DNA of 42,630 nucleotides from a virus. Positions 5,442 to 39,681 of the stretch are shown piece after piece. Within the stretch, counting starts at the first letter, position 1. Every line of letters starts with the position of its first letter. Location: positions 1 through 42,630 of IMG/VR virus record IMGVR_UViG_3300050029_000153; one strand, written 5' to 3'. Below the pieces are notes generated by a model. The model was not told the DNA's origin, did no database searches, and worked only from the letters and a program-made list of their open reading frames with translations. A program made the translations under genes and the position numbers.

Positions 5442-5444
5442 CCG

Positions 5445-7755: not shown

Positions 7756-7774
7756 GTTTCATGAAAGGAACCAG

Positions 7775-21659: not shown

Positions 21660-21700
21660 CACCGGCGCTTTCGCGGTCCTAGGCCGATCAGCACCGGGGC

Positions 21701-21724: not shown

Positions 21725-21731
21725 TGCCATG

Positions 21732-21813
21732 TAGTACGAAAGTACTATGCGGTGTTGGTACTACAGACGCTGTGGACAACGACCTGGTGGGGCGGTATGG
21801 TTGCCATGGCAAC
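21732..21813 (+). promoter_or_regulatory. regulated promoter of the AAA+ gene (copy 1 of a conserved design)
   Basis: In order: TAGTAC-GAAA-GTACTA (21732-21747), GGTACT (21757-21762), 11 bases, -35 TGGACA (21773-21778), exactly 17 bases, -10 TATGGT (21796-21801), and a perfect palindrome GTTGCCATGGCAAC (21800-21813) over the start point. The same order and nearly the same spacing recur before 23301 and 42576. The upstream GTAC elements look like activator or repressor sites and the palindrome like an operator. Confidence 0.75.
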
Positions 21814-21846
21814 TTCGCCAAGGCACACCGGAAGGAACGAACCTCG

Positions 21847-23193: not shown

Positions 23194-23270
23194 ACGAAAG
23201 TACTACGACCACAGGTACTTCCGGCGCGTTGGACAGCCGACGCGCCGGCGGGTATCGTGGCCTAGCCACG
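23194..23270 (+). promoter_or_regulatory. regulated promoter of the VWA gene (copy 2 of a conserved design)
   Basis: ACGAAAGTACTA (23194-23205), GGTACT (23214-23219), 11 bases, TGGACA (23230-23235), 17 bases, TATCGT (23253-23258), then CGTGGC-CTA-GCCACG (23256-23270). Order and spacing match copies 1 and 3 to within one base. The ATG at 23301 has CCGAAAGGAACC upstream. Confidence 0.75.
23221..23248 (+). terminator. perfect 9-bp hairpin around the -35 element
   Basis: CCGGCGCGT and ACGCGCCGG are perfect inverted repeats separated by ten bases that include the -35 TGGACA. It may terminate the upstream AAA+ transcript while the promoter restarts transcription, or act as an operator. No T tract follows. 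Confidence 0.4.
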
Positions 23271-23300
23271 AAGGCACTCGACCCCGAAAGGAACCTCTCG

Positions 23301-25253: not shown

Positions 25254-25471
25254 CGACGAACCACCGCCACGAACCCCGCGTCAACGAACGCAACGGCCGT
25301 TTCTTCTGCGCTACGTACAAGTTGTACCTCGACGTGCCGGCAACGACGGCCTCAGATCCACTCAGCGCGACGAACCAGGAGGAGCCGATGGAATACACGT
25401 CTTCAGAGGCGACCAACGCCTCGACCGAACCTACCGCCACGCAGGCCAACCTGGAAGGAGACCTCTCATGA
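25250..25471 (+). CDS. hypothetical protein
   Basis: Seventy-three residues from an ATGA overlap with the VWA gene. The N-terminal half is basic; the C-terminal half is Thr/Glu/Ala-rich. A second ATG at 25388 behind AGGAGGAGCCG could start a 27-residue product, so the real start is uncertain. Function unknown. Confidence 0.45.
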   Translation: MTTNHRHEPRVNERNGRFFCATYKLYLDVPATTASDPLSATNQEEPMEYTSSEATNASTEPTATQANLEGDLS

Positions 25472-25959
25472 TCCCCGAACTGACCATTGAAGAGTACCGC
25501 GAGATGCGGGCTGAACGATCCGCCTTGGCGCGTTCGTCCGCCGTCACGGGCCAGATCATCTCCGAGCTCTATGCGCGCTGCCAGATCTGCGGCCACTGCG
25601 AGCTCGCAGGCGGCTTCTGCTCGTGGTGCAAGACCGGCGATTACACGCTCGACCTGCACCTCCACCTCAACCCGAAAGAAGGAGCCGCATGCCCCAAGAC
25701 CCGAGTCATCGAGGCCACGTACCACCACCCGAAGAACCCTGGCGTTGGCTCGCCAGCACCGAAGCCCTCCAGCGCGAAGCCTACGGCGCCGATCCCGACG
25801 CAACTCGCGGATCCGTCCAGGCCCAAGCCGAGTCGCTCAAGTGGAACGCTCTTGCGGCGTTCGTCGAGCTCGGCGAGGCGACCCGCGAGTTCTCGTGGAA
25901 GCACTGGGCCTCGGATGGCCCGTTCGTCAACCGCGACCGCCTCCTCGGCGAGCTCGTAG
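25468..25959 (+). CDS. zinc-ribbon protein with out-of-frame overlap
   Basis: A 163-residue reading frame starting with ATG behind GGAAGGAGACC. The first 75 residues look real: a helix, then CQICGHC and FCSWC, a four-Cys zinc site. From about residue 75 onward it overlaps the dUTPase-like gene by 271 bases and becomes Pro/Ser/Arg-rich, as expected of an out-of-frame read. The functional part is probably the N-terminus. Confidence 0.5.
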   Translation: MIPELTIEEYREMRAERSALARSSAVTGQIISELYARCQICGHCELAGGFCSWCKTGDYTLDLHLHLNPKEGAACPKTRVIEATYHHPKNPGVGSPAPKPSSAKPTAPIPTQLADPSRPKPSRSSGTLLRRSSSSARRPASSRGSTGPRMARSSTATASSASS

Positions 25960-26099
25960 ACATCGCCCACTTCATGGGCAACATGCTCATCGCCGTCGGG
26001 GTGACCGACGACGAGTGGGCCGCCGCCTACCAGGCCAAGCAGGCCGTGAACCGTGCCCGTCAGCACGACGGGTACACCGCTCGAAAGGAGCGCGCATGA
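25689..26099 (+). CDS. all-alpha NTP pyrophosphatase (dUTPase/dCTPase/MazG-like)
   Basis: A 136-residue protein with the metal-binding pattern of all-alpha NTP pyrophosphatases: E60 and E63 (FVELGEA), FSWKHW at 68-73, and E88 and D91 (GELVDIAHF). Members hydrolyse dUTP, dCTP or other NTPs to the monophosphate. T4 uses an enzyme of this type to remove dCTP before making hydroxymethyl-dCMP. AAGAAGGAGCCGC precedes the ATG. It lies upstream of a thymidylate-synthase-fold gene, which suits a supply of dUMP or dCMP. Confidence 0.75.
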   Translation: MPQDPSHRGHVPPPEEPWRWLASTEALQREAYGADPDATRGSVQAQAESLKWNALAAFVELGEATREFSWKHWASDGPFVNRDRLLGELVDIAHFMGNMLIAVGVTDDEWAAAYQAKQAVNRARQHDGYTARKERA

Positions 26100-27004
26100 A
26101 AGCGTACCTCGCCGGCCCGATGTCGGGCATCAAGGCCTTCAACATCCCCGCCTTCGACCACGCCGCCAAGATCCTGCGGGAACTCGACTTCGAGGTGGTC
26201 TCGCCGGCGGAAGTTGACGGGCCCGTCACCCGCGCTCAGCTCCTGACGTCGCTCAACGGCGACCACGCGGATCTGCCGCCTTCGGACGGTGGGTGGAGCG
26301 CGTACCTCGCGCGCGACTTCCGGATCCTGGCCGACGACGGCATCGAGGCCATCATCACGCTCCCCGGGTGGAAGACGTCGCGCGGCGCTCGGTGCGAAGT
26401 CGCCGTGGCCGAGGCACTGGGCCTCATGCACATCGAACTCAGCGAGTTCATCGACCTCTTCCCCGACCACGCCGACCTCTTCCCCGACCACGCCGACATG
26501 TCGGTTGACATCCGCGAGGAAGTCCTCCCCTGGCATACGCCGGTCCCGATGGCCGTCCGCAACGCGCCCGGCTTCCAGTCGCCGCGCGTCCACATCGAGA
26601 ACACCCAGACACCGGACGAGGTCTTCCAGTCCTACGAGGACAACCCCGAGCGACAGCGTCAGGTGACCGGCGGCGTGAAGGACAACGCGAGCAAGCCGCG
26701 GGTCGATCTCATCCCGTCGAAGCCGCTCATCGGCGTCGGTCACGTCCTCGCCTTCGGCGCGAAGAAGTACAAGCCCAACAACTGGCGCCTCGGCCTCCGG
26801 TGGTCGGACACCCTCGGGTCGGCGATGCGCCACCTGCTGGCCTTCGCCGACGGCCAGGACCTCGACCCGGAGACGGGTCTCCCGCACATCGACCAGGCAC
26901 TCGCTCAGGTCCTCTTCCAGTCCGAGTACTACCACACCAACACGGGTATCGATGACCGCTGGTCCTCGACGTCCGAGGCCGACCGGGAGGCGGCGAAAGC
27001 ATGA
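26096..27004 (+). CDS. DUF4406 - MazZ-like dATP/dGTP diphosphohydrolase fusion
   Basis: A 302-residue two-domain protein. Residues 1-112 (YLAGPMSG, VVSPAEVDG, TLPGWKTSRGARCEVAVAEALG) fit DUF4406, a nucleoside 2-deoxyribosyltransferase-like fold. Residues about 192-290 (GGVKDNASKPRVDLIP, GAKKYKPNNW, AMRHLLAFADG, ETGLPHIDQ) match the N-terminal domain of phage dATP/dGTP diphosphohydrolases (MazZ). The linker carries a perfect seven-residue duplication. It probably acts on nucleotides, but no PurZ-like gene is present, so 2-aminoadenine DNA is not supported. Confidence 0.75.
   Translation: MKAYLAGPMSGIKAFNIPAFDHAAKILRELDFEVVSPAEVDGPVTRAQLLTSLNGDHADLPPSDGGWSAYLARDFRILADDGIEAIITLPGWKTSRGARCEVAVAEALGLMHIELSEFIDLFPDHADLFPDHADMSVDIREEVLPWHTPVPMAVRNAPGFQSPRVHIENTQTPDEVFQSYEDNPERQRQVTGGVKDNASKPRVDLIPSKPLIGVGHVLAFGAKKYKPNNWRLGLRWSDTLGSAMRHLLAFADGQDLDPETGLPHIDQALAQVLFQSEYYHTNTGIDDRWSSTSEADREAAKA
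26453..26494 (+). repeat. perfect 21-bp tandem duplication in the fusion linker
   Basis: Two identical 21-base units encode the seven-residue unit DLFPDHA twice. They lie in the linker between the two domains. Perfect nucleotide identity suggests recent slippage; the unit preserves frame. Confidence 0.9.
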
Positions 27005-27195
27005 ACGCGCAAGACGTCAAGGACATTGTTCAACGGATGCTGGACGCAGGCATCTACCCGTCAGACCGAGCCCTCTTCCGCGTTGGCATCACGATGAACA
27101 GTCGTATTCTTAGTCATCGCAACCAAGTTCTCGAGGCCAACGGTTACACCTACCGCCCCGAAGTCACTCATGGCGCGAAGTGGGTGAAGGCATGA
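27001..27195 (+). CDS. small hypothetical protein
   Basis: Sixty-four residues, helical, between the fusion gene and the thymidylate-synthase-fold gene and overlapping both by ATGA. It starts NAQDVKDIVQRMLDAG and contains SRILSHRNQVLEANGY, which could be an HTH-like helix pair. Function unknown. Confidence 0.5.
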   Translation: MNAQDVKDIVQRMLDAGIYPSDRALFRVGITMNSRILSHRNQVLEANGYTYRPEVTHGAKWVKA

Positions 27196-28007
27196 GGTAC
27201 TACGACACCTTCTCCGAGGCCTGGGTGGCCGAGCTCGAGGGCATCCGCCGGTTCGGCGAGGAGGTCTCTCCACGCGGCCAGGCCACCTCCGAGCGCCGGT
27301 GGAGGCAGTTCGCGGTGTGCGATCCACGCTCCTTCCCCGTCGTGGCTGCGGGGCGCACCTTCGCCAACGTGATCGGCGTCCTCGAGGGCTTGTCGCTCGT
27401 CGGCCAGTTCTCGGTCCCGGAGCTGTTCACGTCACGGGTCAAGAAGTTCGTCGAGTTCACCGACGCGGGAGTCTTCCACGGCTCCTACGGCGCGCGTGTC
27501 CACGGCCGCCTCGGCGACCTCGTGGAACTCCTCGAGCGTGATCCCGACACACGCCAGGCGGCGTTGTCGATCTTCGACAGCCGCTCAGACCTCGGTGTCG
27601 CCAAGCGCGACATCCCCTGCACGTTCGTGCTCCACTTCCTTGTCCGCGATGCCAAGCTCGAGATGCGGGCGGTGATGCGCTCGAACGACATCTGGCTCGG
27701 CACGCCCTATGACCTGACCCAGTTCGCCATCCTCCAGTGCAGTGTCGCGCAGGCACTCGGCCTCGAGCCGGGCACCTACGTCCACTCGGCTTCGTCGCTC
27801 CACCTCTACGAGCGGGACCGCGCCAAGGCCCTGCTCGTCGGCGCGCCCGACACCGAGCCCGGCATCACGGGCGACCTGTGGGGCGGCGAGGGCTCCATCG
27901 CGGACATCTCGTCGCGCGCTCGGCGCCTGTGCCTCGATCCCGTTGGCTTCGTGGCGGAGACCGAGTTCGAGGCCTTCTGTCAGGCCGTTCTAGAACCGGG
28001 AGCCTAG
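27192..28007 (+). CDS. thymidylate-synthase-fold dCMP (hydroxy)methylase candidate
   Basis: A 271-residue protein of thymidylate synthase length. The nucleophile is Cys143 in DIPCT; RSNDIWLGTPYDLTQF at 163-178 is the core nucleotide-binding segment and HLY at 204-206 the second. At the position where thymidylate synthase has Asn (E. coli N177), this protein has Asp174. That change is the known hallmark of dCMP hydroxymethylases and methylases. The predicted reaction is methylene-tetrahydrofolate-dependent modification of dCMP at C5. Ordinary dUMP methylation is the alternative. Confidence 0.78.
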   Translation: MRYYDTFSEAWVAELEGIRRFGEEVSPRGQATSERRWRQFAVCDPRSFPVVAAGRTFANVIGVLEGLSLVGQFSVPELFTSRVKKFVEFTDAGVFHGSYGARVHGRLGDLVELLERDPDTRQAALSIFDSRSDLGVAKRDIPCTFVLHFLVRDAKLEMRAVMRSNDIWLGTPYDLTQFAILQCSVAQALGLEPGTYVHSASSLHLYERDRAKALLVGAPDTEPGITGDLWGGEGSIADISSRARRLCLDPVGFVAETEFEAFCQAVLEPGA

Positions 28008-28009
28008 GC

Positions 28010-28459
28010 GTGTCAAGGACCCGGGCGCGTAGTTCTTCGACTTCGCAGGCAAGTGCGCCTAGAGTGACCCTGGCGTCCTCTGAGAGGGCCCTTGCACGCC
28101 GCCTCACGGACGAAGATCGCCGGCTGCGGGCGATCCTCGAGAAGACCTGGCAGTCGCGCGTCGTCCGGTTCGCCCGGAAGCACGGATGGGCCGTTGTGTC
28201 GTTCCACGCCTCGAGCATGGGCTCGAAGCCGGACGGCACGCCGATCTTCGCCACGGCCATCTCGGGCGACGCTCGCGGCTTCCCGGACCTCTCGCTCTAC
28301 AAGGCCGGCTTCGCGCCGATCTACGCCGAGTTGAAGCGGGAGTTGGGGAAGACGTCGCCCGAGCAGGACGTGTGGCTCGAGCGACTGCGGGACTGCGGGT
28401 GCATGGCCTTCGTGTGGCGGCCATCGGACTGGCCAACCATCGAGGCGTGGCTGAAGTGA
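28010..28459 (+). CDS. VRR-NUC-type nuclease
   Basis: A 149-residue protein with the PD-(D/E)XK pattern of VRR-NUC nucleases: a conserved helix near 50-60 (TWQSRVVRFARKHGW), GFPDLSLY near 90-97 and AELKRE near 106-111, then a Gln in SPEQDVWL. These enzymes cut branched or flapped DNA. The GTG at 28010 gives an N-terminus of about 35 residues with atypical codons, so a later start is possible. Confidence 0.75.
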   Translation: MSRTRARSSSTSQASAPRVTLASSERALARRLTDEDRRLRAILEKTWQSRVVRFARKHGWAVVSFHASSMGSKPDGTPIFATAISGDARGFPDLSLYKAGFAPIYAELKRELGKTSPEQDVWLERLRDCGCMAFVWRPSDWPTIEAWLK

Positions 28460-28776
28460 CCACGCAGCAAGACCGCCGCGACACTCTGGCCGCCGAACTC
28501 GCCGCGCGCATCGCCGCTCGCCCGGTGGTGCTCCCGAAGTACGATGGGCGGCTCCCGTTCCCGAACGATGCCCCGCAGGAAGCCGTCCAGCGCGAGGTCA
28601 TGATCCTGCGGCGGTCCATCGCCGCGCTGACCTCGTTGGCCGACGACCTGGAAGCCCTCTCAGGCGGCCCGCCGCCACCGGCATGGACCCCGGGGAAGAA
28701 GATCACCTACGCGCCGAACGCCTCGGCTGGGCCGGGCGAGCGTCGCATCCGCAGAACAAAGAAGGAGACCGAATGA
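28456..28776 (+). CDS. hypothetical protein
   Basis: A 106-residue protein from a GTG overlapping the nuclease stop. Residues 10-75 are helical and Ala/Arg-rich; the C-terminus has a Pro run and a basic tail (RRIRRTKKE). No recognised domain. It lies between two nuclease genes and is likely part of the replication/recombination operon. Confidence 0.55.
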   Translation: MTTQQDRRDTLAAELAARIAARPVVLPKYDGRLPFPNDAPQEAVQREVMILRRSIAALTSLADDLEALSGGPPPPAWTPGKKITYAPNASAGPGERRIRRTKKETE

Positions 28777-29168
28777 AAGAGCTCACGTTGGCCATCGACC
28801 CGGGCATTGCCTCGGCCTGGGCCCTCATCTCGCCCGACGGGGCACTTGCCGGCACCGGGGTCTGGGCCGTGGATGAGATCCCGGGGCGCCTCGACGCGCT
28901 GATCCGCAGGCTCCACCTCAGCGGCTACACGCTCTCGTGCGTGGTCGCCGGAGAGAAGCCGGGCCCGACGCGGGAGATGGTCATCCGCGGTGCGATCCTG
29001 GCGACACTCGAAGAGATCTACGAGTTGCACGTCCAGACCGTGTGGCCGAACGAGTGGCGGCCGCCGACGCGCGCCGTGAAGTGCCCATGGCGCTACGGCG
29101 GGGTGCCGCTCACACTCGACCAGAAGAACGCCTACAAGATGGCGCTCTTCGCGCGAGGCCTCGCGTGA
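28773..29168 (+). CDS. RuvC-like Holliday junction resolvase
   Basis: A 131-residue RNase H-fold protein. LAIDPG with Asp9, Glu61 in VAGEKPG and Asp116 in LDQKNAYKMA give three acidic residues in RuvC order. Phage RuvC-like resolvases cut recombination or packaging intermediates. GAAGGAGACCG precedes the ATG. The final 'DxxDA' helix of RuvC is altered to DQKNAYKM, so activity should be tested. Confidence 0.7.
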   Translation: MKELTLAIDPGIASAWALISPDGALAGTGVWAVDEIPGRLDALIRRLHLSGYTLSCVVAGEKPGPTREMVIRGAILATLEEIYELHVQTVWPNEWRPPTRAVKCPWRYGGVPLTLDQKNAYKMALFARGLA

Positions 29169-30250
29169 AGGCCCCCACCGGCGAGGAGTGGCGGACGCCC
29201 GTCGACATCACGTCCACCTCGGCCACCGAGCGGGCTGGCTTCCGGAAGTGCCGGCGCCAGTGGTTCCTGACCGTCGCGCACCGGCTCGACCGGCAGGAGC
29301 CCAACGTCCACTTCTTCCTCGGGACGATCTACCACAGTGGCCTCGAGGCCTACTACCGGGCACAGAAGATCGCCGACCTCACGCCCGAGGACCGCGACAC
29401 CCTCGCGCTCGACGCCTACCAGGCCGCCTACGACGAGTATATGGCCCGGATCAAGGAGCAGCTCGGGTCGCTCTTCGCGTATGGGGAGCAGATGTTCCGC
29501 GACGCTGGCGAGCTCGGGATGGAGATGCTCCAGAACTACCTCGAGCACGAACGAACCGACCCGCTCCTCGATGAGGTCATCGCCGTCGAGTTCCGGGTCA
29601 ACGTCGACATCGTCCACCCCGACACGGGCGACGCTGTGGGCACCCTGTCCGTCCAGGCCGACGTGGTGGGCATGAAGGACGGCGAGCTCGTCGTGTGCGA
29701 CCACAAGACAGCGTCGCGGGTGATGCCCTCGGCCCACCTCGACCTCGATGACCAGCTCACTGCCGAGGTCTTCGCGTGGTGGCAGGCCACGGGGAACTTC
29801 CCCGAGAAGGCCATCTACAACGTGTCCATGAAGCGCGCGCCGAAGCCACCCGCGCTGCTAAAGTCCGGGAAGCTCTCCAAGGCCAAGGGTATGGTCACGA
29901 CGGCGGCGATGTACCGCGCCGAGATCGCACTGCGCGGCCTCGACATCGCGGACTACGTCGACTTCATCGCGTACCTCGTCCAGCTCGAGGAGAGCGGTGA
30001 GGATCGCCTCTTCCGTCGTGAGGCGGTGTTCCGCACGCCAGGCCAGATGGCCGCGTTCGAGCGCGACCTCTACTGGGAGTTCACGGACATGCAGGCGGTG
30101 GGCGCCGACCCGTCGCGAGCCTACCCGAACCCGACCAGCGACAACTGCTCGCGGTGTCCCGTCCGGGCCATCTGCACCACGATCCAGGATGACGGCGACG
30201 TTGCCGCGATCATCCAGGCCGGGTACGTCATCGCCGATCCAAGGCGATGA
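29165..30250 (+). CDS. RecB/Cas4-family nuclease with Fe-S cluster motif
   Basis: A 361-residue protein. QADVVG with Asp166 and VCDHKTA at 178-184 form the PD-(D/E)XK core, and DDQLTAEVFAWW supplies the family's Q motif. Cys29 together with Cys328, Cys331 and Cys337 (NCSRCPVRAIC) match the four-Cys iron-sulphur arrangement of Cas4/AddB-like nucleases. Such phage exonucleases process ends for recombination. It begins at a GTG overlapping the RuvC-like gene. Confidence 0.82.
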   Translation: MKAPTGEEWRTPVDITSTSATERAGFRKCRRQWFLTVAHRLDRQEPNVHFFLGTIYHSGLEAYYRAQKIADLTPEDRDTLALDAYQAAYDEYMARIKEQLGSLFAYGEQMFRDAGELGMEMLQNYLEHERTDPLLDEVIAVEFRVNVDIVHPDTGDAVGTLSVQADVVGMKDGELVVCDHKTASRVMPSAHLDLDDQLTAEVFAWWQATGNFPEKAIYNVSMKRAPKPPALLKSGKLSKAKGMVTTAAMYRAEIALRGLDIADYVDFIAYLVQLEESGEDRLFRREAVFRTPGQMAAFERDLYWEFTDMQAVGADPSRAYPNPTSDNCSRCPVRAICTTIQDDGDVAAIIQAGYVIADPRR

Positions 30251-30258
30251 TCCCGTGG

Positions 30259-30264
30259 TACGAT
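30259..30264 (+). promoter_or_regulatory. extended -10 promoter with overlapping dyad
   Basis: GTGG-TACGAT matches an extended -10. ATGATC (30247-30252) and GATCAT (30262-30267) form an inverted repeat overlapping it. The predicted leader of about 16 bases contains AAAGGAG for the small membrane protein gene. Confidence 0.4.
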
Positions 30265-30286
30265 CATTCCCCACGAAAGGAGCGCT

Positions 30287-30430
30287 ATGACCCGACCACT
30301 TAGGCCGGTGCCCGCATCGACGCCCGTACAAGGTTGTGGCTGCTTGATGGTCCTGTTGATCCTCGGCGGTTGCGTTGCTATCCTCGGCGCGGCGTTCGGC
30401 ATCGGGCTCCACATCGTCGGCTTCCACTGA
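30287..30430 (+). CDS. 47-residue single-span membrane protein
   Basis: The ATG follows CGAAAGGAGCGCT, an excellent ribosome site. Residues 1-15 are polar; about 17-44 form a membrane segment rich in Gly, Leu, Cys and Ala. The stop overlaps the next start (TGATG). Such tiny membrane proteins can act in superinfection exclusion or host takeover, but nothing here identifies a role. Confidence 0.6.
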   Translation: MTRPLRPVPASTPVQGCGCLMVLLILGGCVAILGAAFGIGLHIVGFH

Positions 30431-31146
30431 TGGCCGTCAAGGCTCGGAAGCCCGAAGACGCGAAGTATCTCAAGGCCCTCATCCACAGCCCCGCAGGCCA
30501 CGGCAAGACCAGGTTCCTCGGCACCGCGCAGGAGGACCCGCGTACCTTCCCGATGGCGTTCCTCTCGTTCGAAGGCGGCGAGATGACTCTTTCTGGCCTG
30601 GATATCGACGTGTTCGACATCCGGGACGGCAAGGACTACGAGGATGTGTACAAGCAGCTCCGACGTGCGGACACCCCGTACAAGTCCGTCGGCGTCGACA
30701 GCATCACCGAGACCCAGATCAGCACCTTGCTGCAGATCCTGGGGACGGACACCGTCAACCGAGCGGACCCGGACCAGCTCGCTCAGCAGGACTGGGGCAT
30801 CGTCCTTGTCCGTATGCGTCGGATCGTGCGTGAGTACGTGAAGATGCTCCCGATGCACGTGTTCATGACCGCCCTGTCGAAGGACGAGATGGTGGCGCGC
30901 GTCGGCTCAGTCAAAGCACCCTCGATGCAGGGCCAGTTCGCCAACGAGCTGCCCGGCATCATGGATGTGGTTGCTTACCTCGCCCTTGAAGACAACCCCG
31001 ACACGGGAGGGGCCCAACGTATCCTGCTCCTGCATGATTACCCAAAGTTCTCGTGCAAGACCAGAACTCCGTGGAACACTACGGTGCCCAGTGAGATCGT
31101 TGACCCAACGATCACAAAGTTGCTCGACGCGTTGGGATACAAGTAG
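30430..31146 (+). CDS. Sak4-like RecA-fold ATPase
   Basis: A 238-residue protein with Walker A HSPAGHGKT at about 20-28 and a Walker B-type strand SVGVDSITE near 84-92. A Sak4/AAA_24 pattern follows, including VFMTALSKDE and a final basic strand. Sak4 proteins are phage single-strand annealing/recombination ATPases that work with an SSB, and the SSB-like gene comes next. Confidence 0.78.
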   Translation: MAVKARKPEDAKYLKALIHSPAGHGKTRFLGTAQEDPRTFPMAFLSFEGGEMTLSGLDIDVFDIRDGKDYEDVYKQLRRADTPYKSVGVDSITETQISTLLQILGTDTVNRADPDQLAQQDWGIVLVRMRRIVREYVKMLPMHVFMTALSKDEMVARVGSVKAPSMQGQFANELPGIMDVVAYLALEDNPDTGGAQRILLLHDYPKFSCKTRTPWNTTVPSEIVDPTITKLLDALGYK

Positions 31147-31238
31147 AATGGGGTGACTACATCCGCCTGTGCTCATCGTGCCACAAGATCTACGACAGCA
31201 TCGTAGACAACCTGAAAGGAGCTACACCATTCCGATAA
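31104..31238 (+). pseudogene. remnant of an HNH endonuclease C-terminus
   Basis: This frame has no start codon, but from about 31149 it reads WGDYIRLCSSCHKIYDS, closely like the last metal-binding part of free-standing phage HNH endonucleases (LCxxCHxxYD). It ends in TAA at 31236-31238. The ribosome site of the SSB-like gene lies inside it. Probably a deleted HNH homing endonuclease; chance similarity is possible because the match is short. Confidence 0.45.
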
Positions 31239-31816
31239 TCGCCGTGAACCTCGGGGCCGTCGAGGCCTTCGAGAACGTGCCCACCGGCACGTACCTCGGC
31301 CAGATCGACAAGATCGGGTACCGGGAAGCCAAGGAGCAGGGCAAGTTCGCGTCGCTGATGGTGACCTACACCGTCATCGAAGAGGGCGACTTCCTGGGCC
31401 GGAAGCAGTCCGAGTTCCTGAGCTTCTCGCCGAAGGCCCTCTACCGCATGAAGCTCTGGTTCGCCAAGTTCGGCCTCGGGGACGTTCCCGAGTTCGACGT
31501 GGACGACACCACGAATGAGCTTCTCGAGCCGGACCTCGTCGGTGTCCAGGTCATCTTCCAGGTGTCGAAGGACGGCACCCGGGATCGCACCGAGCTCGTG
31601 TCCGTCGAGGACGACATGAGCGAACCGGTGGCCGCGGCGCCTGCGCCGGTTCGAGCCACCCGTCCTGCCCCGGTCGCCGTCGCGGCGGTCGAGGAGGAGA
31701 TCGAGGAAGAGGAGGAGGTCGTCGTGGCCGCCCCCGTCGCCGCGGCACCGCGCCGCGTCGTCCGTGCCGCCGAGACGGCCGCTCGTCCCGCTCCGCAGCG
31801 TCGGTCGCTCCGCTAG
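31229..31816 (+). CDS. DUF669-like single-stranded DNA-binding protein
   Basis: Up to 195 residues. The N-terminal 120 residues (VPTGTYLGQIDKIGYREAK, VTYTVIEEGDFLGRK) match the OB-like pattern of DUF669-type phage SSBs. The tail is Pro/Ala-rich with an acidic run (EEEIEEEEE), as in SSB tails that recruit partners. The best-spaced ribosome site, AAAGGAG, lies seven bases before ATT at 31229, a rare start codon. GTG at 31244 is the alternative. It follows the Sak4-like gene. Confidence 0.7.
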   Translation: MPIIAVNLGAVEAFENVPTGTYLGQIDKIGYREAKEQGKFASLMVTYTVIEEGDFLGRKQSEFLSFSPKALYRMKLWFAKFGLGDVPEFDVDDTTNELLEPDLVGVQVIFQVSKDGTRDRTELVSVEDDMSEPVAAAPAPVRATRPAPVAVAAVEEEIEEEEEVVVAAPVAAAPRRVVRAAETAARPAPQRRSLR

Positions 31817-31830
31817 CTTTCACCCTCGGG

Positions 31831-31856
31831 GCCGGCGGTACGGGCACGCCGCCGGC
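31831..31856 (+). terminator. hairpin after the SSB-like gene
   Basis: GCCGGCGG and CCGCCGGC pair perfectly over eight bases with a ten-base loop. It lies between the SSB-like and polymerase genes and is followed by TCC, not a T tract. A G+C-rich terminator or attenuator is plausible. Confidence 0.5.
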
Positions 31857-31889
31857 TCCACCCCCAGTCCCTCATCGTAGGAGACACGA

Positions 31890-34325
31890 ATGAAACTCGC
31901 CCTCATCACGGGCAACGGGCAGAAGAACGCGCACACCGTCGACCGCTACACGCAAGCCACCATCGACGCCTGCGCCGCCGCCATCGGGATTGCGTCGCCA
32001 GAGGTGGTCTACATCGCCGCCCTCCCCGACGCGCCGAAGGGCGCCCTTCCCATCCAGGCTCTGCGCGACGCGCGGCCGGATCTGCTGAACCGCATCTATG
32101 ACGCGGCGCCGGACATGATCGTGTCCCTCGGCCGCGACCCGCTGCACGCCCTCCTCGGTGAGCCCATCGCGCTGAAGAACGAGCACGGCCGCATGCGCTG
32201 GCTCGACGTGTGCGGGGTCGCCGACCACTCCGGCCCCGGTTGCCGCCGCATCCCGTGGGTCCCGACCATCGCACCGTGGCAGGTTGTCGGCCGTGGTTCG
32301 TCGGATCTGCACCGAGACTTCGCAAACGTGCTCTACAAGGCACTCTCGCAGTCTGAGCCACTCCCCGAGATGGACATCGAGCTCCACGTGTGCGAGACCG
32401 CGACCGATCTCGAGGACGCGCTCCAGGTGCTCGAGGGCGCGAGCGTGGTGGGTGTGGACGTGGAGACCACGGGCCTCTCACCCTACCGCGACACAATGAC
32501 GGCCGTAGGCCTCGGCGCCGTGTACGACCGGGACTCGGGCGTGGCGGTCATCGCCACCGACAAGTGCCTCGAGGACCAGGCCTCCTGGGACCTGCTCTGG
32601 GACGCGATCTGGCGTCAGACCCGCCGCTCCGTCGGGCACAACTTCAAGTTCGACATGCAGTTCCTCCAGCGCATCATTGACTGGCCTCCGGAGGCTGCAT
32701 GGCTAGGAGACACTCTACTCGTCGCTCACCTGGCGGACGAACGAAACACCGGCCCGCGGTCGAGGGCGCGAGGGAGTGGCCTCAAGGACCTTGTAGCACA
32801 ACGCTACGACCTGCAGTACGGTTTCGACTTCGGCAAGGACGCCGAAGAGGCCAGCGCTGCGGCGCGCGATGAGCTCCACGTGTACCTCGGCAAGGACGTG
32901 GTCTACACCGCTCGGCTGTTCCTCGACCTGAAGGACGAGGCCGATGCTGAGACGGGCGCGTTGATGTCCGCGCACGACACGCTGCTGATGCCCGCCTCAG
33001 TGGCTCTAGCCCGTGCTGAGTCCGCCGGGGCACCCGTCGACCGCGCGTGGATCGAAGCGCTGCTGGTCAAGATCACCGCGCGGGTTGCTCGGCGTCGCGC
33101 CGCACTCGAGAAGGCGATCATCCCCCTCACGCCCACCGTGGTGGTCGACAACGTGCTGGCGCCGATGCAGGTCGCCGACGCGATGTACGACGAGTGGGGC
33201 ATGACGCCGGACATGCGCCGTAACGGCCGCCTCATCGAGAACGACCGGAGCACGGACAAGGACCACAAGGCCGCGGCCATCGCCAAGTACCGGATCCGCG
33301 GTGGCGCGTGGTACCGGCAAGCCGGGTGGCTGATGTCGCTCGACCGCCTCATGAAGGACGTGAAGCTCATCTCCACGTACCAGAAGGCGATCCTCGACCG
33401 CATGGATGACGACGGCCGCCTGCGCGCCTCGTTCCTGCTCCACGGCACGTCGACCGGCCGGCTCTCCTCGCGCGAGCCTAACCTCCAGAACGTCCCCGCG
33501 GTGGATGACCGGGAGCTCTACAACGGCCAGATGCGCTACAAGCTTCGCTCCGGCGAGTGGGTGCACAACCCGATGCGCCGCGCGTTCCGGACCGAACCGG
33601 GGCGGCAATGGGTGGAGGTCGACTACTCGCAACTCGAGCTCCGTGTGGCGGCCGGTATCTCGTCGGACCCAGCTTTCACGGCGGTCTTCACCGGCGGTCG
33701 TGACGTGCACCGCGAAGTGGCCTCGAGCATCTTCAGCAAGGCTCCCGAGGACATCACGAAGCCCGAGCGCTACCTGGCCAAGGCCGTCGCGTTCGGCATC
33801 CTGTACGGCAGGTCAGCGAAGGCCATCGCCGGTGGAGCGGAGATGGACTACGCCGAGCGGGAGCTCCATATGACCCGCTGGACCGAGGAAGTGGCGGCGG
33901 CCTTCATCACCAAGTTCCTGGCGTCCTACCCCGACCTGGATGCCTGGATCGCGTCGGTGCACCAGACCGCCCCGGTAGCCGGCTTCGTCGCCAGCCCCTT
34001 CGGTCGGCGGCGGCGCTTCCCGTACTTCGACACCAACGAGGCAGCGAGCATCCGGCGCCAGGCCGTGAACACCCCGATCCAGTCCGCGGCCAGCGACATC
34101 TGCCTCCGAGCGTTCGTCGAGCTGCAGCGCCGAGTGCGGGAGGCGGGCATCGACGCGGTGGTGATGTTCCCCGTCCATGACAGCATCTGCGTTGACGTAG
34201 CGGACTCGGCGGTGGCAGCACTCGAGATACTTTGCCGCAGCATCATGGAGGTTGACTTCATGGGTGTGCCGTTGAAAGTGGACTTCGAGTGGGGCCCAAC
34301 TTGGGCGGATACTGAGGCTCATTGA
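31890..34325 (+). CDS. family A DNA polymerase with 3'-5' exonuclease
   Basis: An 811-residue polymerase. Residues about 1-150 (VSLGRDPLHALLG, WVPTIAPWQVV) resemble a uracil-DNA-glycosylase-like fold sometimes fused to phage polymerases. The exonuclease has DVETTGL at 190-196 and HNFKFD. Polymerase motifs are VEVDYSQLELR (Asp578), KAVAFGILYG (Lys631, Phe635, Tyr639) and VHDS (His763, Asp764). It replicates the phage genome. TAGGAGACACGA precedes the ATG. Confidence 0.93.
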   Translation: MKLALITGNGQKNAHTVDRYTQATIDACAAAIGIASPEVVYIAALPDAPKGALPIQALRDARPDLLNRIYDAAPDMIVSLGRDPLHALLGEPIALKNEHGRMRWLDVCGVADHSGPGCRRIPWVPTIAPWQVVGRGSSDLHRDFANVLYKALSQSEPLPEMDIELHVCETATDLEDALQVLEGASVVGVDVETTGLSPYRDTMTAVGLGAVYDRDSGVAVIATDKCLEDQASWDLLWDAIWRQTRRSVGHNFKFDMQFLQRIIDWPPEAAWLGDTLLVAHLADERNTGPRSRARGSGLKDLVAQRYDLQYGFDFGKDAEEASAAARDELHVYLGKDVVYTARLFLDLKDEADAETGALMSAHDTLLMPASVALARAESAGAPVDRAWIEALLVKITARVARRRAALEKAIIPLTPTVVVDNVLAPMQVADAMYDEWGMTPDMRRNGRLIENDRSTDKDHKAAAIAKYRIRGGAWYRQAGWLMSLDRLMKDVKLISTYQKAILDRMDDDGRLRASFLLHGTSTGRLSSREPNLQNVPAVDDRELYNGQMRYKLRSGEWVHNPMRRAFRTEPGRQWVEVDYSQLELRVAAGISSDPAFTAVFTGGRDVHREVASSIFSKAPEDITKPERYLAKAVAFGILYGRSAKAIAGGAEMDYAERELHMTRWTEEVAAAFITKFLASYPDLDAWIASVHQTAPVAGFVASPFGRRRRFPYFDTNEAASIRRQAVNTPIQSAASDICLRAFVELQRRVREAGIDAVVMFPVHDSICVDVADSAVAALEILCRSIMEVDFMGVPLKVDFEWGPTWADTEAH

Positions 34326-34510
34326 TGGCATCTCTCACTGCTTCCGTGACGTCTCTTGCCAACGTCCATCCGGTTGACAGCACATGGGTCCATATCCATG
34401 AATACCGACTGCCAACGCACGAAGATCCGGAAGATGACGGATCGCACACCCGACCGGTTTCTCCACGTGGATGGCCGGTTCTAGGCGCCCTCAGAGGGTC
34501 TCACCGATGA
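34325..34510 (+). CDS. small hypothetical protein between polymerase and primase
   Basis: Sixty-one residues. The ATG overlaps the polymerase TGA and the stop overlaps the primase ATG, so translational coupling at both ends argues for a real gene. Codon use is less G/C-ended than in neighbours. A 28-codon alternative starts at 34399 in another frame with better codons. Function unknown. Confidence 0.4.
   Translation: MASLTASVTSLANVHPVDSTWVHIHEYRLPTHEDPEDDGSHTRPVSPRGWPVLGALRGSHR
34479..34502 (+). repeat. 24-base element shared with 11351-11374
   Basis: TTCTAGGCGCCCTCAGAGGGTCTC lies just before the primase-helicase ATG. It matches 20 of 24 bases, without gaps, to the sequence at 11351-11374 ahead of the connector operon. 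A related inverted core (CCTCTGAGAGG) occurs near 28077. It may be a regulator or RNA-processing site. Confidence 0.5.
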
Positions 34511-36255
34511 CGGTTCAGGACATGGATTGGTTCCTAGAGCGGGTCGAAGTGGCCCGTGAGAACACAACGACTCCTGGAATGAGGGATGTTCACGCGGCGT
34601 GCCCCGTGTGTCGCAGCGCTGATAATCTTCACATCACAGAGCACAACGGCCGAGCGCTACTGAAGTGCTTCGGGTGTTCCGCGAAGTACGACGACATCGT
34701 TGCTGCCCTCACAACGACAGATGACACGGCCGATGAGGAGCCACAACAGGAAGAGGTAACGGCTCCTGTTATCCGCAAGCGGCGAACATCGGCAGTAGTA
34801 CCCGCTAACGTCGAACTCGACCCCGCCGCCTGGTACAGTGAGTACTGCGGCATTCCGTGGGCCGACATCGAGTCGCTCGTTGTCCGAGTAGATGGTGAGT
34901 GGCTGGAGCACGGCTGGCCCGACGGCCGCGTGTGGAAGGGCCGGAAGGCCGGCACCGCGGACAGGCGCTGGACGCCGAAGGGCGCGACACCGCCGAGGCT
35001 CTGGCCGTTGCTCGAACCCGCAGAGGAGATCTGGCTCTGTGAGGGTGAGTCGGACGTCATCGTGATGCGGTTGGGGTACGGGTTGCCGGCATACACCGCC
35101 GGTTCCGCCACCACGCTGCTCACCGTGGATGAGTTCCACGCGCTGAAGCGCAAGGGCGTGGATCGCGTCGTCATCGCGTATGACAACGACAAAGCCGGCC
35201 AGAAGGCTACCGCCGAGGTGTTGGCCAACGCGCGAGAAGCCGGCATCGGTGCTGTCGTAGCCCAACTCGCTGATCCGTTCGTCGGCGGACCAAAGGATTG
35301 GCGTGAACGTTGGTTGTCGGGTGACGACACACTTCCGACCTACGCGAGTGACAACCTCGAGGAAGACTACCCCGTGCTGACCAGCGTGCCCACGGCTCCC
35401 GAGACAGAGCTCTTGCTCGGCTTCCTGCACCCCACTGCCCACACGATCCTGTTCGGTGACGGTGGCACCGGCAAGGGCGTGATCGCTGCGTGGTGGGCAA
35501 CGCAACTCACGCAGCTCGGCAAGCGCGTGCTCGTGCTTGACTGGGAGAAGAACGCCCAGCACGAATGGAAGCCGCGCATCAGCACGTTCGGCGAAGACAC
35601 GGCCACGGACATGGTCCGCTACAACCAGCCCACTCGCGCCATCTGGGATGAGGTCGGTGACATCCGCACGGCCATCCAGGAGTTCCACACGGACTACGTC
35701 ATCGTGGACAGCATCACCTACGCGTGCGTGGGCGAGGAAGTCGAGCGGAGCAGCACGGCGGCGAAGTATTCATTGGCCATCGCTCAACTGCCAGTGCCGG
35801 TGCTTTCACTAGCACATACCACGAAGGTCGAACCGGCACCCAAGCACCCGTTCGGTTCGGTGTTCTGGAGCAACGGCGCGCGCATCACCATCAACGTGGC
35901 GCTGTCCGACCCGAAGAACTACGGCAGCCCACGACGGGTCACGTGCAAGAAGACCAACCAGGTCGCGCCGTTCGCGCCGCAAGATGTGCCATGGGACTGG
36001 GTGACAACGGGACTGCCGCATGAGCTCGAGTTCGATGCCGTCGTTGAGGGCCTCGACACTCGCATTGCGCTCGCCATCGCGTCCATCGGCCACTTCGGCA
36101 CGGCGAGCCAGATCCATGCGGCGATGCTCATCGACGGTGGCCTCGCGGTGGAGCAACAGAGCATCAGCAACCGACTTAGCGCCCAGAAGAAGTCCGACCA
36201 GCCCTACGCTGTGATGCGCGGCGGTAGGGTCTGGCACGACCTCACCCCACACTGA
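34507..36255 (+). CDS. primase-helicase
   Basis: A 582-residue protein. CPVCRSADN and KCFGC (about residues 31-60) form a primase zinc-binding domain. LCEGESD and YDNDKAGQ are TOPRIM motifs. FGDGGTGKG is the Walker A of a RepA/DnaB-like ATPase and VIVDSITY its Walker B. The protein should unwind DNA and make primers, as in gp4-like phage enzymes. It starts by overlap with the small gene upstream; an ATG at 34525 is an alternative. Confidence 0.88.
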   Translation: MTVQDMDWFLERVEVARENTTTPGMRDVHAACPVCRSADNLHITEHNGRALLKCFGCSAKYDDIVAALTTTDDTADEEPQQEEVTAPVIRKRRTSAVVPANVELDPAAWYSEYCGIPWADIESLVVRVDGEWLEHGWPDGRVWKGRKAGTADRRWTPKGATPPRLWPLLEPAEEIWLCEGESDVIVMRLGYGLPAYTAGSATTLLTVDEFHALKRKGVDRVVIAYDNDKAGQKATAEVLANAREAGIGAVVAQLADPFVGGPKDWRERWLSGDDTLPTYASDNLEEDYPVLTSVPTAPETELLLGFLHPTAHTILFGDGGTGKGVIAAWWATQLTQLGKRVLVLDWEKNAQHEWKPRISTFGEDTATDMVRYNQPTRAIWDEVGDIRTAIQEFHTDYVIVDSITYACVGEEVERSSTAAKYSLAIAQLPVPVLSLAHTTKVEPAPKHPFGSVFWSNGARITINVALSDPKNYGSPRRVTCKKTNQVAPFAPQDVPWDWVTTGLPHELEFDAVVEGLDTRIALAIASIGHFGTASQIHAAMLIDGGLAVEQQSISNRLSAQKKSDQPYAVMRGGRVWHDLTPH

Positions 36256-36275
36256 AAGGAGCTTGTGGACAATCT

Positions 36276-37307
36276 ATGAAGATCCTCATGACGGGCATGA
36301 CAGCCCGTGCGGTCGGGTCCACGAAGGTCAAGTACGACTACATCTCGCTACCCGCGATGTATCGTGATGCCCTTCGTGAACTCGGCCATGAGGTTGATAT
36401 GCGAACCACTCGACACGAGGAAGACCTCGATGAGTACGACCGCGCGCTTGTGCTCGTAAACTGGGTGAGTTCGCTGTCATCTGGCCATTCACACGAGACG
36501 GGGCTTGCTTTGGCTAAGCTCGGAGATCGTGCCATTCTCTATGTTGATGATCGCGCGGCCTCGATCATCACGAAAGACATCGACGTAGCTGTGCTGAATG
36601 ATGCAGCTTGGGAGAAGCATACTCGCGGCTTTCGTGGTCGAGAGTACGCGACGATGACTTCAGAACAAGTAGACCTCACTCGTGAAGCTCTCTCTCGGAT
36701 TGCGCTTCCGAATTGCCCATGGCCGATGCTTACGGCGATGTATGACTGGGGTGACCACAGTAAGTTCTTCGGCGCGTCACGTGTAGCTCCTGGCTTTGAA
36801 CTCATCACGGTCGACCCTACCGCAATCCTCCCACCTGCTGAAGTGTGGGACCGTGAACGACAACGAGCTTGGGTCATCGCCATGTTCCAGAACCCTCAGA
36901 AGTGGCTAACAGAAGTCGCTCCTACGTGGCCCGTGACCCAGTATGGCGGAGATCCTAAGCCACGTGGTGGCGGAGCTCACGGAACCGACCATCCAGTCAT
37001 TCCGGAAGCTGAACTTATCCAAGCCTACGCCGATCATCGTGGGATGTTAGTCCCGCCGTCAAAGACAGATGGTTCGGGTTGGTGGCGCGTTCGCTATGCC
37101 TACGCGCTTCTCGCCGGAGCTATTGTCTTCCCGCCGCCGCTGGATGGTGAGGCTATTGGCCCGTCATTCACTAACAGCTTAGAAGACATCGAAGCCGCGA
37201 GTGATGATGAACTCGAAGCACTCGCCCAACGTCAACGCGAGCAAATGGCCGCATGGACGTGGCCGAAAGACAAGTTCATGTTTGAGCTTGAGAAAGCTGT
37301 GCAATAG
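36276..37307 (+). CDS. GT-B-like glycosyltransferase, copy 1
   Basis: A 343-residue protein paralogous to the next gene. It starts KILMTG, has VGSTKVKYD, LGHEVDMR, LVNWVSSLSS and YVDD in the N-terminal half, and QYGGDPKPRGGG and DGSGWWRVRYAYALLAG in the C-terminal half, like the two Rossmann domains of GT-B enzymes. The layout resembles T4 beta-glucosyltransferase, but that is a pattern comparison only. Codons are more A/T-ended than in neighbours, suggesting recent acquisition. A GAAAGGAGC lies 13 bases before the ATG. Confidence 0.55.
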   Translation: MKILMTGMTARAVGSTKVKYDYISLPAMYRDALRELGHEVDMRTTRHEEDLDEYDRALVLVNWVSSLSSGHSHETGLALAKLGDRAILYVDDRAASIITKDIDVAVLNDAAWEKHTRGFRGREYATMTSEQVDLTREALSRIALPNCPWPMLTAMYDWGDHSKFFGASRVAPGFELITVDPTAILPPAEVWDRERQRAWVIAMFQNPQKWLTEVAPTWPVTQYGGDPKPRGGGAHGTDHPVIPEAELIQAYADHRGMLVPPSKTDGSGWWRVRYAYALLAGAIVFPPPLDGEAIGPSFTNSLEDIEAASDDELEALAQRQREQMAAWTWPKDKFMFELEKAVQ

Positions 37308-38356
37308 TGAAGATCCTGATGACGGGTTTCGCCGCACGCGGCATCGGAAGCACCCGCACTCGCTATGACATCACGTCACTCCCGGACGGGCTAGGCCGGG
37401 CTCTGAGGCACTTGGGCCATGAAGTCGATGGACCGCGCAGGGTGCCCTACGACGAGCCTCTCAGTGGATCTGAGGACCTGGTCATGGTGCAGGTTGGTTG
37501 GACCTCTTCGCTATCATCGTCCTACGCGCATGAAGCCGCGCGCGTGATGGCCGACGCGGAGGAGTTGGGCATCCCGGTGCTGCGCTACGTCGATGACTGG
37601 CGTTCACAGTGGCTGGCCGATGACATCATGGGGCACGTGGTGAGCGACAAGGGCTGGCGGCTGCACACGGAGCGGTTCCGCGCGAAGGAATACGCGAGCA
37701 TCTCAGCCCATGACAAGGAGCGCTTGCGCAAGGCACTTGCTGGGCCGATCAACGGCGCACCCGTGATGGTGCCGTTGATGGGCTGGGGCAACCCAACACT
37801 GTTCGATGTGTCTCGGAGTGCTTCGCTGTCGCGCGTTGTGCCGTTCGATCCACAGAGCCTCTTCCCCACGGTGCCCACGAACTTAGCGAGTGACTTTGTG
37901 CGGCAACGGCGTTGGGTGCTGGCCTCACTGCAAGAGCACGACAAATGGGCGAGTTCACTTGGTTTGTCGTGGGATGTCCTGCGATTGGGCGGGGTGAAGA
38001 AGAACCCCGGCGGCACGGTCATCGCTGGCATGTCGCAGCCCGTCCTGCCGGAGGCGGCAGTCCTTCAGCACTATGCGGAGTCTTGGGGCGTGCTGTCCCC
38101 TCCCTACCTGTCTGCTGGGAGTGGCTACTGGCGCACGCGCTTCGCGCAGGCCATTGATGCCGGGTGCTTGATCTGGCCCGGTGAAGTGGATGCTAGTGCA
38201 TTGGGCACTGCGTTCGTTCCTCCGGCGGTTGTCGAACTCATGTCCACGAGCGAGTTGGTTGCGCTCGCGGATGCGCAAGCCGCTACGCTTGACTCGTTTC
38301 GGATGCCGCTAAATGCCACCTATGATGCTCTCGCTAAGCTCGTTTCTAGAGTATGA
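37307..38356 (+). CDS. GT-B-like glycosyltransferase, copy 2
   Basis: A 349-residue paralogue of the preceding gene. KILMTG, GSTRTRYD, SLPDGLGRALRHLGHEVD, SSLSS and YVDD are shared, and VLPEAAVLQHYAESWGVL plus AGSGYWRTRFAQAIDAG match the C-terminal half of copy 1. It begins at a GTG sharing one base with the upstream stop. Codons are closer to the phage average than those of copy 1. A DNA-base sugar transferase is proposed because of the dCMP-modifying enzyme; another acceptor is possible. Confidence 0.55.
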   Translation: MKILMTGFAARGIGSTRTRYDITSLPDGLGRALRHLGHEVDGPRRVPYDEPLSGSEDLVMVQVGWTSSLSSSYAHEAARVMADAEELGIPVLRYVDDWRSQWLADDIMGHVVSDKGWRLHTERFRAKEYASISAHDKERLRKALAGPINGAPVMVPLMGWGNPTLFDVSRSASLSRVVPFDPQSLFPTVPTNLASDFVRQRRWVLASLQEHDKWASSLGLSWDVLRLGGVKKNPGGTVIAGMSQPVLPEAAVLQHYAESWGVLSPPYLSAGSGYWRTRFAQAIDAGCLIWPGEVDASALGTAFVPPAVVELMSTSELVALADAQAATLDSFRMPLNATYDALAKLVSRV

Positions 38357-39289: not shown

Positions 39290-39681
39290 AGCACATTCAC
39301 GTCGTCACGTGCCCGAGGAACTGTCGTGCAGCGGTCCCGCGCCACTACAAGGCGCCGAATGGAGGTCAACGGAAGCAACGACTGGGTGGTGCGCACGGCG
39401 GAGGCCAGGGGCTCAGCGCCGCAGAGGTGGCGTACCAGATCCAGCTCCAGGGCGGTGTCTGCATGATCTGCCAGCGCGTCCCGACTGACCGGTTCGAGAT
39501 CGACCACGACCATGACCGCGCCGTGGCGGAGGGCCATCCACACGACCCGACAAAGGGGTGCAAGGGGTGCTTCCGCGGGATGATCTGTCGCCAATGCAAC
39601 TCGGGCCTCGGCTTCTTCCGCGACGACATTGAGTCCCTCCGCCGCGCCGTGCGGTACCTCGAGCTCGCTCGTGAACGCTGA
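39286..39681 (+). CDS. endonuclease VII-like resolvase
   Basis: A 131-residue protein matching recombination endonuclease VII: Cys59 and Cys62 (VCMIC), IDHDHD at 72-77, then FRGMICRQCN (Cys101, Cys104) followed by LGFFRDD and RRAVRYLE. These enzymes cut branched DNA and T4 gp49 clears branches during packaging. Its place inside the terminase operon fits that role. Confidence 0.85.
   Translation: MKHIHVVTCPRNCRAAVPRHYKAPNGGQRKQRLGGAHGGGQGLSAAEVAYQIQLQGGVCMICQRVPTDRFEIDHDHDRAVAEGHPHDPTKGCKGCFRGMICRQCNSGLGFFRDDIESLRRAVRYLELARER

Follow-up and report, generated by a model that had tools for sequence, protein, structure and literature searches.

Does this uncultured bacterial virus change the cytosine of its DNA as phage T4 does, and with which genes? 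T4 converts cytosine to hydroxymethylcytosine and then attaches a sugar to it, by means of gp56, gp42, gp1, AGT and BGT. A sequence-only reading of the window, that is, the whole stretch of 42,630 nt analysed here (IMGVR_UViG_3300050029_000153, a record that is not closed), had proposed a comparable pathway made up of a pyrophosphatase, a dCMP (hydroxy)methylase and two GT-B transferases located amid replication genes. We confirmed that the four genes (25689–26099, 27192–28007, 36276–37307 and 37307–38356) are present, all of them on the plus strand, and that the first two are of the families proposed; the E-values of the window gene matches were far beyond the chance level. The location also held, since a family-A DNA polymerase with a 3′-5′ exonuclease (31890–34325, plus strand; PF00476, 2e-71; PF01612, 2e-13), presumed to insert the modified dCTP, and a primase/helicase (34471–36255) lie in the same region. 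Megablast of positions 20000–42630 against a phage collection gave no match. As read from the sequence, it is likely that much or all of the cytosine of this phage is replaced by glycosylated 5-hydroxymethylcytosine. The proposal of cytosine hypermodification is supported by the residues of the hydroxymethylase, by a Pfam family in common with T4 gp56, by the GT-B fold of the transferases and, most strongly, by the genes among which members of the glycosyltransferase family are found.

The product of the pyrophosphatase gene (25689–26099) is one of the all-alpha NTP pyrophosphatases and matched dUTPase_2 (PF08761, 4e-12); it is a candidate dCTPase/dUTPase with a gp56-like role. Its ORF is open from a GTG at 25623, with an in-frame ATG at 25689, and the true start is uncertain because the gene overlaps another ORF at 25468–25959. 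The translation contains the metal-site motifs ELGE and ELVD, in agreement with the ExxE/ExxD pattern of the gp56 type, and T4 gp56 itself matched PF08761 at 2e-5. Judged by sequence, which does not tell dCTPase from dUTPase, the protein is a member of this gp56-type family. The gene is kept beside the hydroxymethylase in two relatives of the window, G001 (63%) and G002 (56%), and in DSL-LC01-like phages a dUTPase_2-type pyrophosphatase gene adjoins the glycosyltransferases. Between the pyrophosphatase and the hydroxymethylase lies a gene that the earlier reading omits (26096–27004, plus strand). It encodes a nucleotide-pool enzyme with a DUF4406 domain (PF14359, 7e-14) followed by a dATP/dGTP-diphosphohydrolase-like domain (PF18909, 2e-27), matched phrog_801 at 4e-36 and is kept in both relatives.

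The gene at 27192–28007 encodes a putative dCMP 5-hydroxymethylase of the thymidylate synthase superfamily, in an ORF that runs from a GTG at 27180 and has an in-frame ATG at 27192. The protein matched Pfam Thymidylat_synt (PF00303, 8e-18) and the PHROG thymidylate synthase (4e-35), and its top PDB match was the CMP 5-hydroxymethylase MilA (2e-21). Using E. coli ThyA numbering, residue-level tests identified E58, Y94, R126, D143, C146, T147, R166, S167, D169, G173, D177, H207 and Y209. Catalytic Cys146, Glu58, Tyr94 and the phosphate Arg residues are those of the thymidylate synthase fold, and C146, E58, D169, G173 and Y209 would indicate folate chemistry. Asp replaces Asn177 in the window, G001, L006 and every aligned actinophage relative, which suggests cytosine, and not uracil, as the substrate base; Asp at this position also marks the thymidylate-synthase homologues of virome contigs with modified cytosine (PMC8670742). 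Likewise, Asp replaces Leu143, as found for hydroxylation and not for hydride transfer, and corresponds to T4 Asp145, which is required for hydroxylation (PMC6400193). The pair S167 and R126 is of the deoxyribose type, according to the comparison with MilA (PMC5175136). Loss of Trp80 was rejected as a hydroxymethylase marker, as T4 gp42 retains Trp there.

The two transferase genes, GT1 (36276–37307) and GT2 (37307–38356), are paralogues with 38% identity, and the G+C content of GT1 (0.56) is below that of the surrounding DNA. GT1 is a candidate DNA hydroxymethylcytosine glycosyltransferase, and GT2 a candidate second DNA glycosyltransferase or an enzyme for a second sugar addition. No Pfam family was matched by either protein, and both matched only phrog_14998, of unknown function (2e-13 and 6e-7, respectively); nobody seems to have given this family a function yet. 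The GT-B label was borne out by AlphaFold models (AF2; pLDDT 82 and pTM 0.83 for GT1, pLDDT 80 for GT2), which matched GT-B glycosyltransferases in Foldseek. The top PDB match of the GT1 model was T4 BGT (1qkj, E 1.3e-6, TM 0.60), a likeness that is suggestive but not specific, because the top matches of the GT2 model were macrolide-type GT-B enzymes, that is, antibiotic glycosyltransferases. A PDB sequence search with GT1 gave chance-level matches only, and comparison of the family with T4 BGT, T4 AGT and RB69 ORF003c, by its profile as well as by hhalign of its alignment, gave nothing significant. Hence, the fold is that of T4 AGT/BGT and of the Tet-associated DNA glycosyltransferases, but the family does not belong to either class by sequence. 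The claim that the sugar is glucose was not supported, given this distance from AGT and BGT and given that relatives of the family adjoin UDP-galactopyranose mutase or arabinose genes.

Relatives of GT1 and GT2 recur beside enzymes that place a hydroxyl-bearing group on cytosine C5, namely dCMP hydroxymethylases of the T4 or actinophage type, TET/JBP oxygenases and an RB69-like arabinosyl-hydroxycytosine cluster. Sixama, GMA2, GodonK, DSL-LC01 and MW202657 each combine them with a D177 enzyme, while FBB1 and phiAS4 combine them with a T4-type gp42 (identity 57–60%); a sequence search with T4 as positive control detected neither AGT nor BGT in the latter two phages. A Tet_JBP gene lies directly upstream of the relative in C48C1, and this oxygenase was present in all 17 related contigs whose upstream sequence was long enough. 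The homologues of Rgz1 and PSTRCR_121 are found within the RB69-like arabinose/hydroxycytosine cluster. Among the IMG/VR loci, 22 had the complete 10 kb of upstream sequence, and all 22 contained the hydroxymethylase; most of them are of one lineage. This company is not background, since a search of 50,697 phage records at E 1e-5 found homologues of the 27192 enzyme in only 1453 (2.9%). The explanation is best supported in two parts, the identity of the hydroxymethylase step and the link between the glycosyltransferase family and C5-hydroxylated cytosine.

A UDP-galactopyranose mutase adjoins the relative in four phage lineages, pointing to a furanose donor there. Its family, PF03275, is present in DSL-LC01 but in neither of the two Gordonia phages searched, nor in the window, G001 or G002, so that the window does not display the phage mutase gene of mutase-linked furanosyl glycosylation. 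We tentatively suggest that GT1, GT2 and their phrog_14998 kin act on DNA and transfer a furanose to cytosine with a hydroxymethyl or hydroxyl group at C5, the donor being supplied by a UDP-galactopyranose mutase of the phage or of its host. The sugar might then be galactofuranose or arabinofuranose, and the same family could perhaps be the absent hydroxymethylcytosine modifier of the Aeromonas T4-like phages, e.g. phage 25. Our search of the literature gave no relevant account of galactofuranose attached to phage DNA. Glycosylated 5-hydroxycytosine is reportedly the subject of two 2025 studies, by Lee et al. and by Mahler et al.

RB69-type enzymes also carry Asp at 177. Together with the homologues inside the RB69-like clusters of Rgz1 and PSTRCR_121, this would suit a pathway in which the 27192 enzyme makes 5-hydroxy-dCMP, not 5-hydroxymethyl-dCMP, and the transferases join arabinose straight to the C5 oxygen. 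Such a pathway is very unlikely in the window. Four RB69-type enzymes share F58, E143, N169 and V173, an unpublished signature that we derived from these four sequences (Glu58, Asp169 and Gly173 lost, Glu at 143), whereas the window enzyme has E58, D143, D169 and G173, as in T4 gp42. Moreover, it falls outside the RB69 clade (support 100/98), and no counterparts of the RB69 arabinose-cluster genes were recognised in the window. The chance is slighter still that no base is changed, 27192 being an ordinary thymidylate synthase whose dUMP the pyrophosphatase merely supplies. Pairs of thymidylate synthase and dUTPase are indeed common in phages, and homologues are named thymidylate synthase in databases, but the enzyme, like T4 gp42, has Asp177, Asp143 and Thr147 where Asn, Leu and His would be expected.

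GT-B enzymes also work on proteins, lipids and small molecules, and the fold by itself does not identify the acceptor. Hydroxymethylcytosine DNA might thus be made while GT1 and GT2 sugar another target (protein, cell surface or virion), which would accord with the resemblance of GT2 to small-molecule glycosyltransferases and with further glycosyltransferase genes of the window (7727, 9766) that sit among virion genes. We consider this unlikely, as GT1 and GT2 are in the replication module and their relatives accompany cytosine-C5-hydroxylating enzymes of three different chemistries. Finally, the PF18909 match of the 26096 gene (2e-27) and the family-A polymerase raised the idea of a 2-aminoadenine (Z) genome, with the diphosphohydrolase-like gene as part of a PurZ pathway. 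This idea, which has a next to negligible probability, was rejected because PurZ was not found: adenylosuccinate synthetase (PF00709) was absent from the window, G001 and G002 but detected in 14 of 14 control genomes.

In the cytosine hypermodification pathway that we favour, the 25689 pyrophosphatase would split dCTP and dUTP, thereby removing normal dCTP and supplying dCMP. The 27192 enzyme would move the one-carbon unit of methylene-tetrahydrofolate to C5 of dCMP, where a water quench would yield hydroxymethyl-dCMP. After conversion to hydroxymethyl-dCTP by a kinase, assumed to be a host nucleotide kinase as the record encodes none, the family-A polymerase would build it into DNA, and GT1, possibly with GT2, would add sugar to the hydroxymethyl group, sequentially or at alternative sites. 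The kinase step and the donor sugar are the weakest parts of this explanation. The sequence-only reading had seen no kinase, and our search for PF02223 and other P-loop kinase candidates likewise found none in the window, whose record is not closed, or in G001 and G002; PF02223 was detected in the controls DSL-LC01 and Sixama. Its suggestion that the gene might lie outside the window fared less well, since the near-complete, syntenic G001 is also without a kinase and the ends of the record alone do not seem to account for the absence. Therefore, unless a kinase lies in the missing part of the record, either a host kinase must act or some step has been misassigned.

The window resembles T4 in having a dCTPase/dUTPase family member, a dCMP hydroxymethylase active site and GT-B glycosyltransferases near replication genes. 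It differs in the lack of a gp1-like kinase, in transferases from another sequence family, in its family-A polymerase and in a hydroxymethylase that the tree places in an actinophage subgroup, distant from gp42. The kind of hydroxymethylase and its active-site pattern, PolA and the glycosyltransferase family are instead shared with the Gordonia phages Sixama, GodonK and GMA2 and the freshwater phage DSL-LC01, for whose DNA chemistry we found nothing in the literature examined. DSL-LC01 also has a MazG/dUTPase_2-type gene, with similar annotations in Sixama and GMA2. Unlike the window, G001 and G002, these four sister phages have a P-loop nucleotide kinase adjoining the hydroxymethylase; DSL-LC01, Sixama and GodonK carry a dCMP deaminase, and in DSL-LC01 the two glycosyltransferase genes flank a gene for UDP-galactopyranose mutase. 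With the TET-type system of C48C1-like cyanophages the window has the glycosyltransferase family in common, but those phages use a Tet_JBP oxygenase in place of a dCMP hydroxymethylase and also have a UDP-galactopyranose mutase. The RB69-type arabinosyl-5-hydroxycytosine system (Mosigvirus, with a homologous cluster in Gualtarvirus) shares an Asp177 enzyme of the thymidylate-synthase superfamily and, in the Gualtarvirus cluster, a member of the glycosyltransferase family; however, the RB69 enzyme is without folate residues and the arabinose genes were not seen in the window. The MetaGPA contigs (PMC8670742) similarly pair an Asp177 thymidylate-synthase homologue with a modifier of the hydroxymethyl group, which is a 5-hydroxymethylcytosine carbamoyltransferase there and would be a sugar transferase here.

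The pathway is a variation on a known type; what is new is the glycosyltransferase family. Sugar-coated DNA, related to that of T4 but distinct from it, probably hides this phage from bacterial defences. If this explanation is true, a phage glycosyltransferase family now catalogued as unknown would acquire a function, and the dCMP hydroxymethylase, TET oxygenase and 5-hydroxy-dCMP synthase routes would be tied to a single transferase family. An earlier study of T4-like Aeromonas phages, phage 25 among them, did not find the modifier and left open what, if anything, is attached to the base (PMC2993671); the explanation would supply a candidate that can be tested.

The window, a 42,630-base IMG/VR virus record, carries its virion genes and replication module on one strand, with the portal (3576-5441), major head protein (6705-7703), tape measure (14111-16000) and terminase (39629-40453) genes all read in the same direction as the replication module. 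The four genes around which the sequence-only reading had built a cytosine hypermodification pathway were all found, namely a pyrophosphatase (25689-26099), a hydroxymethylase (27192-28007) and two GT-B glycosyltransferases, GT1 (36276-37307) and GT2 (37307-38356). A fifth gene, with DUF4406 and dATP/dGTP-diphosphohydrolase-like domains (26096-27004), separates the pyrophosphatase gene from the hydroxymethylase gene. G001, a relative of 45,011 bp, is largely syntenic with the window if treated as circularly permuted: the gene for its PDDEXK exonuclease reaches one end and the gene order resumes at the other. The sequence-only reading had also noted the lack of a hydroxymethyl-dCMP kinase, which it took to be possibly a host enzyme or one encoded outside the window. 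The kinase is indeed missing from the window, and its absence is probably real rather than a matter of missing sequence, because no P-loop kinase was found at ~11.4-16.8 kb of G001, the stretch that bridges the two ends of the window. A second relative, G002 (45,183 bp), stops within its polymerase, and the missing glycosyltransferase there says nothing either way. Also present are genes for a CobS-like AAA ATPase and, next after it, a CobT-like protein (21610-25253; phrog_249, phrog_5298), kept in G002 and missing from G001. Two glycosyltransferase-like genes lie among the virion genes, one with a weak CDP-glycerol glycerophosphotransferase match (7727-8704) and one with two galactosyl-transferase-like regions (9766-11319). 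In a part of G001 missing from the window, an ORF (14932-16800) resembles, by eye, a C5-cytosine DNA methyltransferase.

Alignment of the hydroxymethylase (E. coli ThyA numbering) revealed E58, Y94, R126, D143, C146, T147, R166, S167, D169, G173, D177, H207 and Y209. Asp177 is the predicted cytosine-selecting residue; when viromes were selected for modified cytosine, most modified contigs had Asp at position 177 and most unmodified ones Asn, position 147 being the other top-ranked site (PMC8670742). Asp143 occupies the position of T4 Asp145, whose change to Asn impairs hydroxymethylation, and position 169 is that of T4 Asp171, which contacts the pterin via water (PMC6400193). In the CMP enzyme MilA, Ala176 to Ser together with Lys133 to Arg turned preference to dCMP (PMC5175136), and both dCMP-type residues are present in the window enzyme. 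Directly downstream of the hydroxymethylase of G001 there is a uracil-DNA-glycosylase-superfamily-like ORF (5401-5973 of the G001 stretch L096; weak Pfam match below cut-off).

RB69-type enzymes are related proteins whose product is 5-hydroxy-dCMP, not hydroxymethyl-dCMP (PMC13390438). The four RB69-type sequences on which this signature is based share F58, E143, N169 and V173, a pattern that the window enzyme, its relatives and T4 gp42 all lack; the difference at position 58 depends on the alignment (another gives a different RB69 residue), whereas those at 143, 169 and 173 do not. From these replacements we infer that RB69-type enzymes have lost folate chemistry. The tree likewise placed the window enzyme apart from the RB69 clade, grouped with those of G001 and L006 (support 100/100) and adjoined, with weaker support (87/87), by Gordonia phage enzymes.

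The pyrophosphatase and T4 gp56 both match PF08761, making the former a candidate dCTPase or dUTPase, two activities that sequence cannot tell apart. Its orthologues adjoin the hydroxymethylase in G001 and G002, and follow the glycosyltransferases directly in DSL-LC01-like phages. Its start is uncertain because an ORF with a cysteine-rich, zinc-finger-like beginning (25468-25959) overlaps it in another frame.

Neither GT1 nor GT2 matched a Pfam family. AlphaFold models, built on a 22-row alignment, were good (pLDDT 82 and 80), and the modelled fold of both is GT-B. The top PDB match of GT1 was T4 beta-glucosyltransferase (BGT; E 1.3e-6, TM 0.60) and those of GT2 were antibiotic GT-B enzymes, so the resemblance to BGT is no more than a hint. 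In profile searches the family showed no significant sequence relation to BGT, AGT or RB69 ORF003c. Among 13 diverse members, a strand-end Asp (D92 in GT1) and a GWWR.R motif stand out, which by eye could match two BGT residues, the Asp of catalysis and the Arg that binds UDP. The G+C content of GT1 is 0.56 versus ~0.63-0.67 in neighbouring replication genes, suggesting recent acquisition. In one IMG/VR contig (L042, 7355-8503) the glycosyltransferase frame has one internal stop codon, from sequencing error or decay.

The main evidence that the acceptor of this family is DNA cytosine is its genomic company. Actinophages Sixama, GMA2, GodonK and DSL-LC01 each encode a Cys146/Asp143/Asp177 enzyme, as does MW202657, an unrelated siphophage with a family member. 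In IMG/VR, each of the 22 GT2-type loci whose upstream sequence extends to the full 10 kb, mostly one lineage, carries genes for such an enzyme, a dCMP deaminase and PolA, plus a kinase-like gene. The T4-like Erwinia FBB1 and Aeromonas phiAS4 have a gp42 57-60% identical to that of T4, no detectable AGT or BGT (T4 serving as positive control), and a UDP-galactopyranose mutase gene immediately ahead of that for the glycosyltransferase; in phiAS4 both genes (L103, 4832-7014) are annotated hypothetical. In Morganella Rgz1 and Providencia PSTRCR_121, the family gene is flanked on one side by that of an arabinose-5-phosphate isomerase (75% to RB69 ORF055c) and on the other by a sugar-nucleotide gene (~50% to RB69 ORF53_52c), and an RB69-type enzyme (81%) is encoded nearby; the Rgz1 gene, within this RB69-like arabinose cluster (L119, 6372-9776), possibly encodes the arabinosyltransferase of its genus. 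Several of these lineages (FBB1 and phiAS4; Rgz1 and PSTRCR_121) are T4-like and not fully independent. Phage C48C1 lacks a hydroxymethylase of the gp42/Asp177 kind; there, a Tet_JBP oxygenase gene directly precedes the glycosyltransferase and the mutase directly follows (L102, 4586-8033). In related contigs (L122-L140) the oxygenase was found in 17/17 with upstream sequence, even at up to ~2 kb from the glycosyltransferase, and the mutase in 17/17 with downstream sequence. This trio, conserved in cyanophage-like contigs, suggests that furanosylated hydroxymethylcytosine is made from 5-methylcytosine. Since homologues of the window enzyme of any kind occur in just 2.9% of phage records, the association with the glycosyltransferases is not background.

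In DSL-LC01, FBB1, the Aeromonas phages and C48C1-like phages, the mutase and glycosyltransferase genes are neighbours, which suggests UDP-galactofuranose or UDP-arabinofuranose as their donor. The mutase is absent from the window, G001, G002, Sixama and GMA2. Mycolic-acid actinobacteria make UDP-galactofuranose, and a host making it would render a phage copy of the mutase needless. For the window phage, glucose may be one possible sugar.

Taken together, the hydroxymethylase residues and the company of the glycosyltransferases make cytosine hypermodification by the hydroxymethyl-dCMP route, followed by DNA glycosylation, the best and a quite probable reading, as had been proposed. The route is a variation on a known kind; the new element is the glycosyltransferase family. 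Aeromonas phages 44RR, 31 and 25 have genes 42 and 56 and no known glucosyltransferase, which left the question of another modifier in such phages (PMC2993671). Phage 25 carries, side by side, a mutase and a GT1-family gene (L121, 1396-3577), both annotated hypothetical and not conserved in 44RR. This pair is a direct, testable candidate for such a modifier in phage 25.
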